From an uncultured Acidimicrobiaceae bacterium (GTDB lineage Bacteria > Actinomycetota > Acidimicrobiia > Acidimicrobiales > Bog-793): a DNA stretch of 37,317 nucleotides. Location of the stretch: assembly GCA_903845085.1 (NCBI GenBank), contig CAIMWD010000100.1, positions 1-37,317 on the forward strand. The letters run 5' to 3'. The translations under genes and the position numbers were made by a program. Shown here piece after piece: positions 6,105 through 18,011 of this stretch. A model generated the notes under the pieces. It was given only the letters and a program-made list of their open reading frames with translations. It was not told the DNA's origin and did no database searches. The stretch's first letter is position 1, and every line of letters begins with the position of its first letter.

Positions 6105-7247
6105 ATGACAATCACCCAAGAAACCCAAACCCCAGAGGGCCCCCGCGCGGGGCGACGCCGCAACGGCGCACGGAGGATGAAGCTGGCCATGGCGGCGCTG
6201 AGCGCGTCAGGTGTGGCCGGCCTCACGCTCACCGCAGCCGGTGCCTCGACGAAGAGCTCCCATGCGGTCGTTCCGCTCGTGCTGTACTCCGCCCAGGGCT
6301 ATGACTCCGCGATGGCCAAGGCATTTACCGCGGCCACCGGGATCCCCGTCAACCTCGACGACGACTCGACCGGCCCGCTGCTCACCAAGATCCAGACGGA
6401 GAAGAACAACCCACAGTGGAACCTCCTCTGGGTCGATGGCACGACAGCCTTCGCGGGTCTTGACACCGCTGGTCTGCTCGCGAAGAACCTGACGACCAGT
6501 AACTCAGTGCACCTCAACTCCCTGGGACTTAATGCCTCCGCAACTGACGGCTCATGGATCCCTACCGGCGTGACGATGATGGGTGCGGTTCTCTACAACA
6601 AGACGAAGATTGCGACGCCCCCGAAGACCTACAGCGCGCTGCTCTCCACGAAATGGAGGGGTCAGCTCGGTATGAATGACCCCACACAGTCGGGCCCGAC
6701 CTTCCCGCTCATCGCTGGCGTCATGAATGAGTTGGGCGCAACCGCAAAGGGCTGTGCCTCGACCGCCTGTGCGATCCGAGATGGAGAGCACTTCTTCGCC
6801 ACCTTGAAGACCGACACTGGTCTTGTGATCCACCCGACTAACCGTCCGACTATCGCAGCCATTACCTCTGGCCAGATCAACATGGGCCTCGTGCAGAGCT
6901 CCGCCGCTGCAGGTGCGGCGATCGGTACCTCAAATTTGGGAGTTGCCTATCTGAGCCCGGCAACGCTTCTGCCGAGCGCGATTGGAGTTGACGCAAAGGC
7001 GAGCAAGGTCGTGCGTGCGGAGGCAGAGAGGTTCATCAACTTCGTACTCTCACCCGCTGGGCAGCACGTGATGCAGACCGGTGACCCCACCGGTGACTCG
7101 CTTTACTACCCCGTCGTCAAGGGCACGAACCCGCTGCCGGCGCTCCCCTCGATCGCTCACGTGAATACGCAGGCGATCGACCCCTACGTCTGGGGTCCGC
7201 AGGAGACCAAGATCAACAACTGGTTTACCGCGAACATCACGCAGTAA
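6105..7247 (+). CDS. ABC transporter substrate-binding protein, iron(III)-type
   Basis: A 380-residue extracellular solute-binding protein. The N-terminus has a positively charged region (RRRNGARRMK) and a hydrophobic core (LAMAALSASGVAGLTLTAA) ending near ASTKS, a signal peptide with no clear lipobox. The mature protein begins VVPLVLYSAQGYDSAMAKAF and has VNLDDDSTGPLLTKIQTEK, the pattern of the FbpA/Fe(III) class (also thiamine and aminoethylphosphonate binders). The C-terminus AERFINFVLSPAGQHVM followed by SLYYPVVKG resembles FbpA tails with paired tyrosines. Permease and ATPase genes follow. No Shine-Dalgarno precedes the ATG. Ferric iron is the best guess from family resemblance and the permease type, not proven. 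Confidence 0.8.
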   Translation: MTITQETQTPEGPRAGRRRNGARRMKLAMAALSASGVAGLTLTAAGASTKSSHAVVPLVLYSAQGYDSAMAKAFTAATGIPVNLDDDSTGPLLTKIQTEKNNPQWNLLWVDGTTAFAGLDTAGLLAKNLTTSNSVHLNSLGLNASATDGSWIPTGVTMMGAVLYNKTKIATPPKTYSALLSTKWRGQLGMNDPTQSGPTFPLIAGVMNELGATAKGCASTACAIRDGEHFFATLKTDTGLVIHPTNRPTIAAITSGQINMGLVQSSAAAGAAIGTSNLGVAYLSPATLLPSAIGVDAKASKVVRAEAERFINFVLSPAGQHVMQTGDPTGDSLYYPVVKGTNPLPALPSIAHVNTQAIDPYVWGPQETKINNWFTANITQ

Positions 7248-7253
7248 CGAGAT

Positions 7254-7290
7254 GTGCTCCCCCGCGCGGATGGCAGTCGCGAGGGAGCAC
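7254..7290 (+). terminator. Hairpin after substrate-binding protein gene
   Basis: An inverted repeat GTGCTCCC/GGGAGCAC (outer arms, extending inward with one mismatch) starts 6 bp after the stop codon. There is no T tract, so it is more likely a partial terminator or mRNA 3'-end stabiliser inside the operon. Confidence 0.5.
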
Positions 7291-7350
7291 TCGTCATCGG
7301 ATGCTCCACCTGTTGGCGCCGATGACGAAGGGTCTGTAGTTCCGTACTGC

Positions 7351-7384
7351 GATAGCCCGCCGGGAGTAGTCCCGGTGGGCTATC
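7351..7384 (+). terminator. Second intercistronic hairpin before the permease gene
   Basis: A 15-bp stem (GATAGCCCGCCGGGA / TCCCGGTGGGCTATC, one G-U pair) with a GTAG loop, 38 bp upstream of the permease start. It lacks a T tract. With the preceding hairpin it should lower permease expression relative to the binding protein. Confidence 0.55.
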
Positions 7385-7421
7385 GATCACCCTCGGCAGC
7401 TGTGTGTAGGAGTTCCGTTCG

Positions 7422-9176
7422 TTGACTATCTCTGGTGTAGTGAGTCCGACGGTCACGCGGCGAAAGCTGCGTGACTCGCTTGCAATTTTGAACAGATTCT
7501 CCAAACCCACTGCGTGGATCTTGGTCGCAATAGTGATCTTGCTCCCCTGTCTCTGCTTCTTAGTCCTCGCCGTCTCCCCTCGGCTGTTTGATCAGGGACC
7601 ACAGTGGTTTACGCTCTCCGCCTTCCAATCGGTCGCAAATGGTGCAATGGGCGCGGGCCTCCTCAACTCCATCTGGGTTGCCTCCGCAGCCGCTGGATTC
7701 GGCCTCCTCGTTGGTTTTCCCCTTGCGTGGCTTGCACGCCGCACCGATCTCCGTGGGCATCGATGGGTCACCGGATCGATGTGGTTGGTCTTTCTGCTTC
7801 CCTCGTGGCTTCCCAGTCTCGGCTGGGAGCGTCTCGTGGAACCCGATGGAGTTATGTATCGGATGGGCCTGCATCTTCCCTTCGTGACCAGCGCGATCAT
7901 GGGTCCCTTCGGCGTGGTGCTGCTTCTGGGCCTGCGCTGCGTCCCATTTACCTTCCTCACGACAACGGCTGCGCTCTCGGGACTGGGGCAGGAGTTCGAG
8001 GACGCTGCGCGTGTCCATGGCGCCGGTCGGATGGAGGCGTTTCGCCTCGTCGCCCCAATACTCGCCCCTGCGATCTGGTCGGCGCTCGCAATCGGCTTTG
8101 CCGAGTCGGTCAGTGACTTTGGTGTCGCCTCGACGCTCGCCTACACCTCCCACTTCCCCCTTGCAACCTTCTCGCTCTACCAGGCGATCGGAAACTTCCC
8201 ACCGGAGTTTTCCGTTGCCGCCGCCGCGGCGTGGCTCCTGATCGCCTCCGTCGTTATCCCCCTTGTCCTACAGGCGAAGGCGCTTCGCGGTCGCTCCTAC
8301 GCCGTGCTCTCCGGGCGAACCCGACCGGTGACGCGGCGCTCGCTCGGCCGCAGGGGGCAGCTGTTCGGTATCAGCTTTGTCGGGCTGTTTTACTTTGTCG
8401 CGCTCGGCATCCCCGCCATCGGCGCGGTGAGTGGATCGCTGCTCGGTGATTATGGCGCCAACTTCCAGATATCCTTCGCGAACTATCGCGCGGTATTTGC
8501 CAACTCCCAGCTCTTTGCGCCGCTTGAGCGTTCGATCATCTACGCCCTCATAACGGCCACGATTACGCTCGTGGGCGGCTTTATCGCCGCGCGTATGTTG
8601 GCAAAGTCAAAGACCAAGGCAACGCGATTTCTCGATCTGCTCCTCCTCGGTGCAGTTGCGCTTCCCGGAATTGTCTTTGCCGCGGGCTACATCTTCGCCT
8701 ACAACCTGCCCATCTTCTCCAAGCTCGGTATCGATATCTATGGCACGACGACGTTGCTGTTGATCGCCTATATCGCCACCAGCCTTCCGACGAACGCACG
8801 GATCTTGGTCGGTTCGGTCGCCCAGCTCCAGGCCTCGTTGCACGATGCGGCGAGGGCGCACGGCGCGGGAGCGTTGCGCTCGTGGTTTCAGGGTGTACTT
8901 CCGACGATCTCACGTCCACTGCTGATGGCCTGGCTGTTGACCTTCTGTGGGATCTTCCTCGAGCTTCCAATCTCGCAGCTGCTCTACGCGCCGGGTTCGC
9001 CACCGGTAGCGATCACCGTGCAGAGCAATCTTGGCAACTATCACTTCGGCGTCGGTATGGCCCAGGCCGTCGTCGCCGTTGTGATCGCCTTCTGCGTGGT
9101 GGGTCTCGTCTTTGGCGTCTATCGCCTTCTTGCACCCGCGGGATGGCGTCGTATCGGAGGAGCAACGCATGGGTGA
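7422..9176 (+). CDS. ABC transporter permease, fused double domain (FbpB type)
   Basis: A 584-residue membrane permease with two BPD_transp_1 domains in tandem (about 70-290 and 350-570), the arrangement of FbpB/SfuB iron and related permeases. Each half has the EAA loop that contacts the ATPase: EFEDAARVHGAGRMEAFRLVAPIL in the first (given here as a long loop near residues 190-213) and SLHDAARAHGAGALRSWFQG in the second (around 470-490). About 12 hydrophobic segments are visible. The start is TTG, supported by a GGAG about 10 bases upstream. The stop overlaps the ATPase start by 8 bp (ATGGGTGA), so translation is coupled. It carries the substrate delivered by the upstream binding protein across the membrane. 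Confidence 0.88.
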   Translation: MTISGVVSPTVTRRKLRDSLAILNRFSKPTAWILVAIVILLPCLCFLVLAVSPRLFDQGPQWFTLSAFQSVANGAMGAGLLNSIWVASAAAGFGLLVGFPLAWLARRTDLRGHRWVTGSMWLVFLLPSWLPSLGWERLVEPDGVMYRMGLHLPFVTSAIMGPFGVVLLLGLRCVPFTFLTTTAALSGLGQEFEDAARVHGAGRMEAFRLVAPILAPAIWSALAIGFAESVSDFGVASTLAYTSHFPLATFSLYQAIGNFPPEFSVAAAAAWLLIASVVIPLVLQAKALRGRSYAVLSGRTRPVTRRSLGRRGQLFGISFVGLFYFVALGIPAIGAVSGSLLGDYGANFQISFANYRAVFANSQLFAPLERSIIYALITATITLVGGFIAARMLAKSKTKATRFLDLLLLGAVALPGIVFAAGYIFAYNLPIFSKLGIDIYGTTTLLLIAYIATSLPTNARILVGSVAQLQASLHDAARAHGAGALRSWFQGVLPTISRPLLMAWLLTFCGIFLELPISQLLYAPGSPPVAITVQSNLGNYHFGVGMAQAVVAVVIAFCVVGLVFGVYRLLAPAGWRRIGGATHG

Positions 9177-10350
9177 GCGCGTCGTACTTGAGCGGCTAAC
9201 AAAGATCTATGCCGGTGGGAGCCGTGCGCTCGACGAGGTCTCGATCGTGATCGAGCCGGGTACCTTCCTCGTGCTGCTCGGACCCTCGGGATCGGGAAAG
9301 ACCACGCTGTTACGTAGCGTTGCCGGGATCGAACGCGCTACCTCTGGCACTATCACGATCGGCGAGTTGATGGTCGCGGGTGACCATCTCCACCTTCCTC
9401 CCGAGCGCCGTGATCTCTCGATGGTCTTTCAGGACTATGCGCTCTGGCCACACCTCGTGGCGCGCGACAACGTTGCCTTCGCACTTCGCCGTCGCAACAT
9501 CCGTGGAGAGCGAGCTCGTGAACTTGCCTCATCGATGCTGGAGCGCGTCGGACTTGGACACCTCGGTGAGCGCTACCCCAACGAACTCTCCGGTGGTGAA
9601 CAGCAGCGCGTTGCGCTCGCGCGTGCGCTGGTCGCAGATACCGGTCTGGTGCTCTGTGATGAGCCACTTTCGAACCTCGATGCAGATCTGCGAGAGCGGA
9701 TGCGACTCGAGATCGCCTCCTTAGTCCGCGAGGCGGGGGCAACTGCGATCTACATCACCCACGATCAGGCGGAGGCCTTCGCACTTGCGGACGTTGTCGG
9801 TGTCTTAGAGCATGGACAGCTGGTCCAGATCGCTCCCCCGGAGCAGATCTACTCCTCGCCGGTCTCACCCTTTGTGGCTCGCTTTACCGGCCTCGCGGGT
9901 GAACTCGCCGTTGCAGTGGTGAGCGACCATAGCGATGGAGTCGCGACGGTCGCTCCTGAGGGTCTTCCATCGGCGACGCGCCTCATCTGCCAGAGGCGGA
10001 GAGGGAGCGCGGGGCTACGGCGGGGAACGTTGATGATCCGCGCCGCCGCACTGCATCTTGTCGGCGCCGAGGATCCCATGGGCCAGCTCCAGGGTCAGAT
10101 AAGTGACGTCGCCTTTCGCGGGCGTGGGTATGAGCATGCGGTGACGCTGGTTAATGGAGTACAGCTCTCGGGCATCTTCTCTGCGACGCGCGGCCGCCGC
10201 GGGGATCGCGTGGGCCTTCGAGTAGATCCAAATGGTGCACATCTCTTTGGCGACGCGGCGAACAGTGCGAACGACGAGGAGATCCCCTTCGATCTCTCGA
10301 CGGGCGACGCGATCGAGATCGATATCTCAAAGGAGTTCACCACACTGTGA
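9169..10350 (+). CDS. ABC transporter ATP-binding protein (FbpC/PotA-like)
   Basis: A 393-residue ATPase that powers the adjacent permease. It has Walker A GPSGSGKTT (about 39-47), a Q-loop (MVFQDYALWPHL), the signature LSGGEQQR, Walker B VLCDEPLSNLD and the H-loop ITHDQAEA. The C-terminal third is a TOBE-type regulatory domain, as in FbpC, PotA and CysA. The ATG overlaps the permease stop and is preceded by a clear GGAGG; a further in-frame ATG upstream lies inside the permease gene and has no such site. Its position in the operon fixes its role. The next operon gene starts 103 bp later, with a short coupled micro-ORF in between. Confidence 0.93.
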   Translation: MGERVVLERLTKIYAGGSRALDEVSIVIEPGTFLVLLGPSGSGKTTLLRSVAGIERATSGTITIGELMVAGDHLHLPPERRDLSMVFQDYALWPHLVARDNVAFALRRRNIRGERARELASSMLERVGLGHLGERYPNELSGGEQQRVALARALVADTGLVLCDEPLSNLDADLRERMRLEIASLVREAGATAIYITHDQAEAFALADVVGVLEHGQLVQIAPPEQIYSSPVSPFVARFTGLAGELAVAVVSDHSDGVATVAPEGLPSATRLICQRRRGSAGLRRGTLMIRAAALHLVGAEDPMGQLQGQISDVAFRGRGYEHAVTLVNGVQLSGIFSATRGRRGDRVGLRVDPNGAHLFGDAANSANDEEIPFDLSTGDAIEIDISKEFTTL

Positions 10351-10409: not shown

Positions 10410-10457
10410 ATGCAAAGAGAGAACCACCGCAGGCGGATGGGGGAGGAACGAGCGTGA
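10410..10457 (+). CDS. 15-codon micro-ORF coupled to the COG4280-like gene
   Basis: ATG at 10410 is preceded by a strong ribosome binding site (GAGAGGAAGG, 4-5 nt spacing) and encodes MQRENHRRRMGEERA, five of 15 residues Arg. Its TGA stop overlaps the GTG start of the next gene (GTGA). It looks like a leader peptide that controls downstream translation by coupling or ribosome pausing, rather than a functional protein. It could also be fortuitous. Confidence 0.35.
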   Translation: MQRENHRRRMGEERA

Positions 10458-11233
10458 CGACCTCAGCTGTAGTTCTGGTACTCGCGGTATTTGGTGCCTC
10501 GGCGGTGGAGATGGTGGAGGCCCTGACGATCGTTGTCGCCTCCGGCACCTCGCGTGGCTGGCGTAGTGCACTCGAGGGTGCGGGAGTCGCCGTCGTTGTG
10601 CTCGCCGCAATTGTCGGCGCAGTCGGTGTCCCGCTTGTTCATCTGGTGCCGATCAACGCGCTCCGTGTTGTGGTCGGATCAATCCTTCTGGTGCTCGGTC
10701 TCAACTGGCTACGCAAGGCAATCCTCCGCTCGAGTGGACACATTGCGATCCACGATGAGGACCTCATCTACAAGAAGACGGTTGCCTCGCTCAGCGCCGG
10801 AGTCGACCCTGGGGCACGTCGCCGCGAACAGCGCGATGCCGTCGGCTTTGCCGTCGCCTTCAAGGGGGTCTTCCTCGAGGGAACAGAGGTCGTGCTGATC
10901 GTCTTGAGTCTCGGTTCGAGCGACCACCGAATGCTGCTCGCCTCACTCAGCGCCGGTGTAGCCATCGTGTTGGTCACGATCGTGGGCATCATTGTGTCGC
11001 GTCAGCTCTCTGAGGTACCCGAGAATGCGATGAAGATGACCGTCGGCATCATGCTGTCGAGCTTTGGCATCTTCTGGGCCGGCGAGGGTGCGAAGGTGAG
11101 CTGGCCCGGTTCGGACCTGTTCATCCTCGCCCTCATCGGCATCTTCGGGGCGGTCGCTGCGGCAGGCATCGCGCTGATGCGGACACGCTTCCCAGCGCCA
11201 CAGCCCACTCTCGTCGCGGCGGAGGTGTCATGA
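10454..11233 (+). CDS. COG4280-like multi-spanning membrane protein, possible metal transport partner
   Basis: A 259-residue membrane protein with six or seven hydrophobic segments. It resembles uncharacterised COG4280 proteins. The two halves each carry an ExxE motif in a helix: VEMVEALTIV (Glu19, Glu22) and LEGTEVVLIV (Glu142, Glu145). This is an internal pseudo-repeat, reminiscent of the glutamate motifs in Ftr1 iron permeases and GDT1-type cation transporters. A charged cytosolic linker (about 90-130) joins the halves. The GTG start has GGGAGG eight bases upstream and is overlapped by a micro-ORF. Its stop overlaps the next gene (ATGA). The operon position after the iron ABC genes suggests a role in metal uptake; that role is inference. 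Confidence 0.72.
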   Translation: MTTSAVVLVLAVFGASAVEMVEALTIVVASGTSRGWRSALEGAGVAVVVLAAIVGAVGVPLVHLVPINALRVVVGSILLVLGLNWLRKAILRSSGHIAIHDEDLIYKKTVASLSAGVDPGARRREQRDAVGFAVAFKGVFLEGTEVVLIVLSLGSSDHRMLLASLSAGVAIVLVTIVGIIVSRQLSEVPENAMKMTVGIMLSSFGIFWAGEGAKVSWPGSDLFILALIGIFGAVAAAGIALMRTRFPAPQPTLVAAEVS

Positions 11234-11442
11234 ACCTCATTGTGCGATGGACCAAGGCCTTTGGCCTCTTTTGGTGGGACTTCCTTGTTGGCGATACCCC
11301 AGAGCTCTTTGTCGGGATGTTGGTCGTCGTCGGCATCGCCTTCGTCACCCATAACCACCGTGCACTCGCGGTCACGTTGGTTCCTCTCTCTGCGATCTGC
11401 GTGCTCTTGGCGAGCACCGTGCGCGGTCGCAAACGTAGTTAG
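11230..11442 (+). CDS. Small membrane protein next to the COG4280-like gene
   Basis: A 70-residue protein with an N-terminal amphipathic, Trp/Phe-rich part (WTKAFGLFWWDFLVGDTPELF) and two hydrophobic segments (about 25-42 and 46-62), ending in a basic RGRKRS tail. The ATG overlaps the preceding stop (ATGA) and has a GGAGG ribosome binding site, so it is translated together with the COG4280-like protein and may be a subunit or accessory of it. A hairpin follows six bases after the stop. I know of no assigned function; similar small FWxDFxVGD proteins accompany COG4280 genes as far as I recall. Confidence 0.65.
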   Translation: MNLIVRWTKAFGLFWWDFLVGDTPELFVGMLVVVGIAFVTHNHRALAVTLVPLSAICVLLASTVRGRKRS

Positions 11443-11595: not shown

Positions 11596-12843
11596 ATGCT
11601 GACCTCGCTCTTTGGTCGGATGTCTGCGCAGATGTTCTCGGTGCTCATCGTGCTCTTCGTCTTGGGAACGGGGCACTCCTCCGCGCTCTCTGGTCTCGTG
11701 CTGTTGGTTGGTCAGATCCCTGGGATTCTGGTGAGTCCAATCGCCGGGGCCCTCTTGGAGCGCAGCGGAAAGGTGATGCTGATGCGCTTTGATTTTCTTA
11801 TCGCGGCGATCTCGATGGGACTGATCAGCGCGCTCTCTATCGCTCACCTTCTCTCAACTCCCGCGCTCCTTGGCATTGTGGCGGTGGGTTCGCTGACTCA
11901 GCCACTGAGTCGTGTCGGAGGGCGTTCGCTCTTTCCCATCCTCGTTCCCCGCGAGCTGTGGGACCGATCGAACGCGCTTGACAGCGGGACCTTCGTCATC
12001 TCGAGCGTGCTGGGACCGGGCATCGCGGGGATCGCGGTCTCGTTGGTCGGCCCCCGTTGGTCACTCGTCGTTCCAGCGATACTCTCCCTGCTCGCGGCGA
12101 TCGCGCTGATCTGGGTACACGTTGCGCCGAATGGAGCGACCTACGAAAGGGGAGTCCTCGCTGATGCGTGGGCGGGGATTCAGTACGTCATGCATAACCG
12201 CGTTCTTGCGATGTTGGCAGGGACGATGACGATCTATAACACTGCAGCTGGATCGCTCGCGGTTGCGATACCTATCCTTGTACTTCATCGCCTCCATGGA
12301 GGTTCGCGGAGCGTCGGACTCTTCTTTGCCGTGATGGGACTCTCGGGATTTGTCGCCGGGATGGTGATGGGGCGCGTCGGAACGGAGCGCCGCGAGCGCA
12401 TCGTGCTCGCTCTGGGCTGTGCGATGAGCTCCGCCGGCTTTGTGATTCTGGCGCTCAGCCACGTCGCAGTCGTGAGTGCGATCGGTATCGCGATCTGTGG
12501 CATCGCAAATGGTCCACTTGTCGTCGCGATGTTTTCCCTCCGCCAGCGCGCCACCGATCCCGCCTGGTTTGGACGAGCCTTTGCCGTCTCGATGAACGTC
12601 AATTTTGCGGGGTATCCCATCGGCGCAGCGATCGCTGGCGCGCTGCTCACGCACTCGATCAGTGTGGCCTTCTTTGTTGCCGCCGGCTTTGCGCTACTGG
12701 GCGGGATCTGGCCAGCGGTCCTGCCGGCACACCTCTATGAGCCAGTAGAGACCGAGGTGGTCCGTCCACTCGCGGTCGAATCCGAGCCGGCGAACTGGCG
12801 ACGGTCTTCGGGGAACCGTTCCCCGAGTGAATCCGGTAGCTAG
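11596..12843 (+). CDS. MFS transporter (start uncertain)
   Basis: A 415-residue major facilitator transporter with about 12 helices. It is of the enterobactin-exporter-like MFS_3 type: GRSLFPILVPRELWDRSNALDSGTFVISSVLGPGIAG is the familiar loop and helix after TM4 (stated here as positions about 110-146). The ATG at 11596 has no ribosome binding site. The same frame is open back to 11506 and encodes GYGELFHLPGFNGLM just before it, which is the typical N-terminal lead-in of these transporters, yet no ATG, GTG or TTG exists in that stretch. Either a rare start (ATT at 11515) is used, the protein starts at 11596, or a small mutation removed the start. The substrate is unknown. Confidence 0.8.
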   Translation: MLTSLFGRMSAQMFSVLIVLFVLGTGHSSALSGLVLLVGQIPGILVSPIAGALLERSGKVMLMRFDFLIAAISMGLISALSIAHLLSTPALLGIVAVGSLTQPLSRVGGRSLFPILVPRELWDRSNALDSGTFVISSVLGPGIAGIAVSLVGPRWSLVVPAILSLLAAIALIWVHVAPNGATYERGVLADAWAGIQYVMHNRVLAMLAGTMTIYNTAAGSLAVAIPILVLHRLHGGSRSVGLFFAVMGLSGFVAGMVMGRVGTERRERIVLALGCAMSSAGFVILALSHVAVVSAIGIAICGIANGPLVVAMFSLRQRATDPAWFGRAFAVSMNVNFAGYPIGAAIAGALLTHSISVAFFVAAGFALLGGIWPAVLPAHLYEPVETEVVRPLAVESEPANWRRSSGNRSPSESGS

Positions 12844-17765: not shown

Positions 17766-17887
17766 CTGCGTGTGCAGAAACCAGGTCCCCTGCGGCACAC
17801 ACAGCGATCCGCTGAGAGCTGCTGCCTTCCGACCCTGACTCGGTTCACGGGACTGCGTTGCGCAGAACCCGGTTCCTGCACACGCAC
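17766..17887 (-). ncRNA. ffs: Signal recognition particle RNA (4.5S type)
   Basis: On the minus strand the conserved domain IV motif GTCAGGGTCGGAAGGCAGCAGC-like sequence is present (GGAA tetraloop flanked by the asymmetric loop and AGCAGC; near 17819-17840). The ends pair: GCGTGTGCAG at the 5' side with CTGCACACGC at the 3' side (17768-17885), followed inward by GAACC/GGTTT. The length is about 120 nt, the small bacterial form without Alu domain. The location directly upstream of dnaX is the same as for scr in Bacillus. The exact ends are estimated from the closing stem. Confidence 0.88.
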
Positions 17888-17923
17888 ATGCAAGCCATTA
17901 CAGGGTAGCGTCTATATCTCCAA

Positions 17924-18011
17924 GGATGCGTGCGAGAGCGGCCGAATCGGCACGATTGGAAATCGTGTGAAGGGAAACCTTCCGTGGGTTCAAATCCCAC
18001 CGCATCCGCCA
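17924..18011 (+). tRNA. tRNA-Ser (anticodon GGA)
   Basis: A class II tRNA with long variable arm. The acceptor stem GGATGCG/CGCATCC pairs perfectly; the anticodon stem CACGA/TCGTG closes loop TTGGAAA with anticodon GGA at 17958-17960. The T arm contains GTGGG-TTCAAAT-CCCAC, and CCA is encoded (18009-18011). It is transcribed divergently from the SRP RNA gene. Confidence 0.97.

Follow-up and report, generated by a model that had tools for sequence, protein, structure and literature searches.

Ftr1 proteins follow a seven-helix plan, which is also predicted for the 259-residue membrane protein described here, and the glutamates of the RExxE motifs in Ftr1/EfeU are thought to bind the metal cation in transport. 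Among ABC importers, AfuABC was predicted to be iron-binding until its ligand was found, and it carries sugar phosphates (PMC4546632), which provides a precedent for an iron-annotated system with another substrate. The ChrB that has been studied regulates in response to chromate, and its residues R180, R187, and H229 were needed for chromate induction (PMC3817168). The COG4280 family, to which the 259-residue protein is assigned below, spans several phyla; no experimental function was found for it as far as the literature was searched, and no paper found in that search named COG4280 or PF16955.

The window, i.e., the whole stretch of 37,317 nucleotides that was analyzed, originates from an uncultured Acidimicrobiaceae bacterium. 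Five + strand genes follow one another in it and encode a binding protein, a fused permease, an ATPase, and membrane proteins of 259 and 70 residues (Table 1). The binding protein/permease/ATPase set noticed in an earlier sequence-only reading of this DNA is thus real (6105–10350). Downstream, an EntS-like MFS transporter is encoded at 11596–12843; of 80 loci, the one in the nearest relative (L003) alone shows it in that position. Rfam gave only a small SRP RNA (− strand) and a tRNA (+ strand) for the window, at 17776–18008.

Table 1. Features of the locus, with positions in the window
Feature	Position	Strand	Basis
ABC solute-binding protein with an FbpA/AfuA/AEP-type fold; three of the four iron ligands of FbpA replaced	6105..7247	+	
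Fused double ABC permease, 584 aa	7422..9176	+	PF00528 in two stretches; PhnU2/PotC/CysT-like
ABC ATPase with TOBE domain	9169..10350	+	PF00005 and PF08402; PhnT2/UgpC/PotA-like
COG4280/OFeT_1 membrane protein, 259 aa, 3+3+1 predicted helices	10454..11233	+	PF16955 score, model, COG4280-named plasmid homologues
E19-x-x-E22 codons, first half-repeat, helix 1	10508..10519	+	Invariant in 104/104 and 13/13
E142-x-x-E145 codons, second half-repeat, helix 4	10877..10888	+	Invariant in 104/104 and 13/13
70-aa two-helix membrane partner, FWWDFLVGDTPE motif	11230..11442	+	80/80 loci, conserved motif, counterparts, one fusion

The COG4280 protein and its small partner

The gene for the large membrane protein starts with GTG at 10454, is preceded by a GGAGG-type site, and runs for 259 codons to the stop at 11231–11233. 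A longer alternative frame opens at 10232; GTG 10454 was taken as the start because homologues begin near it and because of the GGAGG-type site. With PF16955 (OFeT_1), the protein scored 30.4 bits, above the Pfam cut-off of 26.9, and the same family matched 45 of its 51 homologues (E ≤ 0.01). A six-frame search of the genome with PF16955 scored a single stretch (19.3 bits). Rhizobial plasmid homologues, which are 45–48% identical, are annotated as COG4280 domain-containing; this bears out the COG4280 identity that had been proposed, and by homology the protein is a COG4280 member. No solved relative was retrieved by sequence search, no meaningful match by PDB fold search, and no match in the viral collection.

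The protein contains the motifs VEMVEALTIV (E19/E22) and LEGTEVVLIV (E142/E145). Comparison of the profile of residues 1–118 with that of residues 119–245 paired E19 with E142 and E22 with E145 (P 6.5e-6 for 81 sequences; P 5.4e-7 for 104 more diverse ones). The two halves form a true internal repeat with an ExxE in each, as had been read from the letters. All four glutamates are unchanged in 104/104 actinobacterial sequences, at identities down to about 44%, and they are also present in 13/13 aligned plasmid homologues (Alphaproteobacteria; Firmicutes, represented by Alicyclobacillus). The single-chain AlphaFold2 model (pLDDT 87, pTM 0.74) has three long helices, a short loop helix, three more helices, and then a seventh. 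The ExxE pairs lie within predicted helices 3–34 and 129–156, and hydropathy concurs with the model for helices 1 and 4.

For the comparison with Ftr1, the profile of the protein was aligned with a 30-sequence Ftr1 profile, and a single-sequence comparison was also run. The profile alignment was collinear over residues 10–202 (P 3.8e-4, hhalign probability 36%) and set both ExxE pairs on both RExxE pairs, which agrees with the Ftr1 resemblance pointed out earlier, the Arg aside: it is replaced by V18 and L141. Taken alone, this comparison is weak. Pfam FTR1 (PF03239) matched neither the protein nor its homologues, and the sole FTR1 match in the genome of the window was a separate Ftr1 on another contig. 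Judged by its anatomy, the 259-residue protein would work like Ftr1, yet it is not an Ftr1 member.

The 70-residue ORF starts at 11230 and overlaps the large gene by four bases (ATGA), in line with the translational coupling that had been suggested. Its gene is found downstream of the large one in each of the 80 first-set loci, and the two genes often overlap by four bases there as well. The conserved motif of the partner is F-W-x-D-F-L-x-G-D-T-P-E, and no convincing Pfam family match was obtained for it. Counterparts occur in Rhizobium, Thioclava, Bradyrhizobium, Cereibacter, Alicyclobacillus, and others (three phyla in total), and an acidic (G/D)D motif is common to most of them. Once only (L061), the large and small proteins are fused in one reading frame, on a metagenome contig in which an assembly error could imitate a fusion. 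Next to the COG4280 members of Actinobacteria that diverge most (families f25 and f51), no partner was found. The 70-residue protein belongs to the COG4280 unit.

The ABC importer

The fold neighbors of the binding protein were FbpA, AfuA (sugar phosphate), and binders of AEP, thiamine, PLP, and Mg-citrate, with FbpA/HitA as the nearest solved relatives. Profile alignment puts G65/D111/S266/A267 at the positions of the FbpA ligands H9/E57/Y195/Y196. Across 28 sequences of the binding-protein subfamily, G65, D111, and A267 do not vary, S266 is almost invariant, and the conserved residues are Ser/Thr-rich. Against the NCBIfam equivalog for AEP importers (PhnS2), 40.8 bits were obtained, the cut-off being 392.75. 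A search for an IdeR/DtxR-like box found none. Judged by its residues, the importer does not look iron-specific.

The ABC set could still be a ferric Fbp-type importer and the COG4280 protein a second, ferrous/ferric permease of the same iron regulon. Such iron uptake would agree with the FbpA/HitA relatives, with the name ferrous iron permease carried by PF16955, and with the presence of one relative in Acidithrix ferrooxidans (L047). It appears unlikely, given that invariant Gly/Ala and near-invariant Ser stand in place of Fe ligands, that fold neighbors bind the varied compounds listed above (AfuABC being the precedent; PMC4546632), that the IdeR-like box was not found, and that the genome has its own Ftr1. 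Moreover, no ferroxidase or EfeO/EfeB was seen among the neighbors read, the ABC operon is not beside COG4280 in over half of the loci, and the other neighbors indicate metal/chromate stress, not iron acquisition. The term "iron-type" given to the ABC set in the sequence-only reading is thus not supported. Calling COG4280 and the ABC operon an iron system would be premature, as the importer does not look like an iron importer and is often missing.

Genomic linkage and other neighbors

ABC adjacency was counted in the 75 loci having enough upstream sequence. The ABC operon lies directly before COG4280 in 34 of them and not in the other 41, where the upstream genes are unrelated, e.g., the his operon. 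Whether the ABC operon is there (L023, L027, L016) or not (L026, L042, L069, L081), the flanking his genes are the same. The interval between his and COG4280 is a clean presence/absence site for the ABC operon. Along the COG4280 tree, loci switch between having and lacking the adjacent operon at least 14 times, and well supported branches force at least six of these switches, so the linkage is old or recurrent, not fixed.

Across the phylum sample (296 genomes), the binding protein was found in 3 genomes and COG4280 in 19, the 3 being within the 19; in all three, the ABC operon adjoins COG4280, once in divergent order (L103, another family). Within the family of the window (35 genomes), the binding protein is present in 20 genomes and COG4280 in 31, and many of the ABC operons are three-gene units on their own. 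Obligate dependence of the ABC operon on COG4280 was rejected, since stand-alone operons are common in this family. In 72,556 plasmids, the binding protein had a single relative (E 5e-18); it is encoded on a plasmid of Mesorhizobium, with a COG4280 gene about 5 kb away. The Mesorhizobium binding-protein gene (L282 6790–7793) appears in the annotation as two pieces that overlap, apparently because of a frameshift. From the cross-phylum Mesorhizobium case, the divergent L103, and the adjacency counts, it follows that the link between the ABC operon and COG4280 is real and crosses phyla, and that the two modules are separable. Regarding the proposed survey for Fbp-type neighbors, a non-random ABC link was confirmed, but the operon was missing or elsewhere in over half of the loci.

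The same counts bear on whether COG4280 is an accessory subunit of the importer, e.g., an energizing or substrate-channeling part. The single operon in 34/75 loci, the divergent operon in L103, and the Mesorhizobium relative would suit such a role. It is nevertheless very unlikely, because the majority of loci, and many genomes, have COG4280 and its partner without the ABC operon, and stand-alone three-gene ABC operons exist.

In the family of the window, a ChrB_N (PF20229) gene of one class adjoins COG4280 or a stand-alone ABC operon in 8/9 cases. Elsewhere, such a gene is located between COG4280 and the ABC operon in L103 and directly upstream in L111. ChrB_N genes were also found near COG4280 on plasmids of Roseibium, Cereibacter, Mesorhizobium (two), Bosea, Arthrobacter, and Frigidibacter, and were absent from the genome of the window and from the flanks of the 80 nearest COG4280 relatives. 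These ChrB_N proteins are about 180–200 aa long, so chromate sensing is not to be assumed. In family f25 (L213–L217), ChrB_N genes have a PQQ dehydrogenase gene (L213) and clusters resembling pqqBCDE as neighbors, an arrangement that suggests several targets for the regulator family. Lanthanide/PQQ uptake was considered and dropped, as methanol/ethanol-type PQQ dehydrogenase was found in 0/35 genomes of the window's own family.

Plasmid neighborhoods of COG4280 are often heavy-metal islands, and the alphaproteobacterial homologues are situated in heavy-metal/chromate islands together with a metal-sensing repressor, CDF, P-type ATPase, CusA/CzcA, ChrB, ChrA, ZntB, and copper genes. The link to metal transport anticipated earlier is thus present, but it points to metal/chromate stress rather than iron acquisition. 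With this link, and with conserved glutamates inside predicted membrane helices 1 and 4, the metal-permease part of the sequence-only reading survives. The COG4280 protein probably moves a metal ion.

The islands are also what would be expected of a GDT1/LysE-type exporter or cation/proton antiporter that removes toxic or surplus metal, with a ChrB_N regulator in some hosts. The plasmid homologues are named TMEM165/GDT1 family by NCBI, and the GDT1 profile (PF01169) matched 21/51 homologues. The 259-residue protein itself scored 14.3 bits (cut-off 27) and lacks ExGD(K/R), the direction of transport is not readable from sequence, and the companion in Acidimicrobiia is an importer. We regard export as possible but doubtful; being a directional version of the permease reading favored below, it overlaps with that reading in probability. 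An outward-working, Ftr1-like two-subunit transporter of a trivalent metal such as Cr3+ or Fe3+, controlled in several phyla by regulators of the ChrB_N type, would be a long shot; if true, it would remove, e.g., the product of chromate reduction.

Further recurring plasmid neighbors were PAP2, DedA, and MprF, of which PAP2 and DedA could indicate envelope lipids rather than metals. On an Arthrobacter plasmid (L276 5820–9035), genes for PEP phosphomutase, phosphonopyruvate decarboxylase, and alcohol dehydrogenase directly follow COG4280 and its partner. A module for envelope phospholipid/undecaprenyl-phosphate or organophosphate, with the cation as a counter-ion, would accommodate the PAP2 phosphatase, DedA/VTT, and MprF neighbors, the phosphonate-type genes after the pair in Arthrobacter, and the Ser/Thr-rich conserved residues of the binding protein. 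Such genes are neither beside the gene in the window nor constant in Acidimicrobiia, and the module is considered improbable.

Proposed permease and comparison with known systems

We favor, as rather probable, the reading that COG4280 and its partner, encoded by the coupled genes, form a cation permease with two subunits and four key glutamates that serves in metal homeostasis or stress. The large subunit would consist of two three-helix repeats and a seventh helix, and the first helix of each repeat would carry its ExxE pair to the center. The four glutamates may together provide the binding site for a hard metal cation in transit, in the manner of the Ftr1/EfeU RExxE. The small subunit would adjoin the large one and be needed for folding, gating, or substrate delivery. 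This permease unit would work without the ABC importer, which, where present, may be a separate co-selected module, probably for a related ligand other than free Fe3+, such as a metal chelate or an oxyanion/organophosphate. The fixed small partner, the four invariant buried glutamates, and the recurrent ABC and ChrB_N links make the function of COG4280 testable, and the recurrent link to an FbpA-fold ABC set warns against annotating such sets as iron importers.

Of the known systems, PF16955 (OFeT_1)/COG4280 is the closest: the protein is above the cut-off, has COG4280-named plasmid homologues, and carries ExxE in each half, and nothing tested separates it from this family, whose function is a name. 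With Ftr1/EfeU (PF03239), it shares a weak collinear alignment and two acidic motifs in equivalent helices, but it lacks the motif Arg, has an added coupled small subunit, and has no EfeO/EfeB or ferroxidase seen near its gene. GDT1/TMEM165 (PF01169) is likewise a two-repeat membrane cation transporter with paired Glu, and its profile weakly matches part of the COG4280 family, the difference being the ExGD(K/R) motif. The ABC importer of the window is without the FbpA iron ligands and far under the AEP equivalog cut-offs, but shares with FbpABC/AfuABC/AEP-type importers the binding-protein fold, the fused permease, and the TOBE ATPase.
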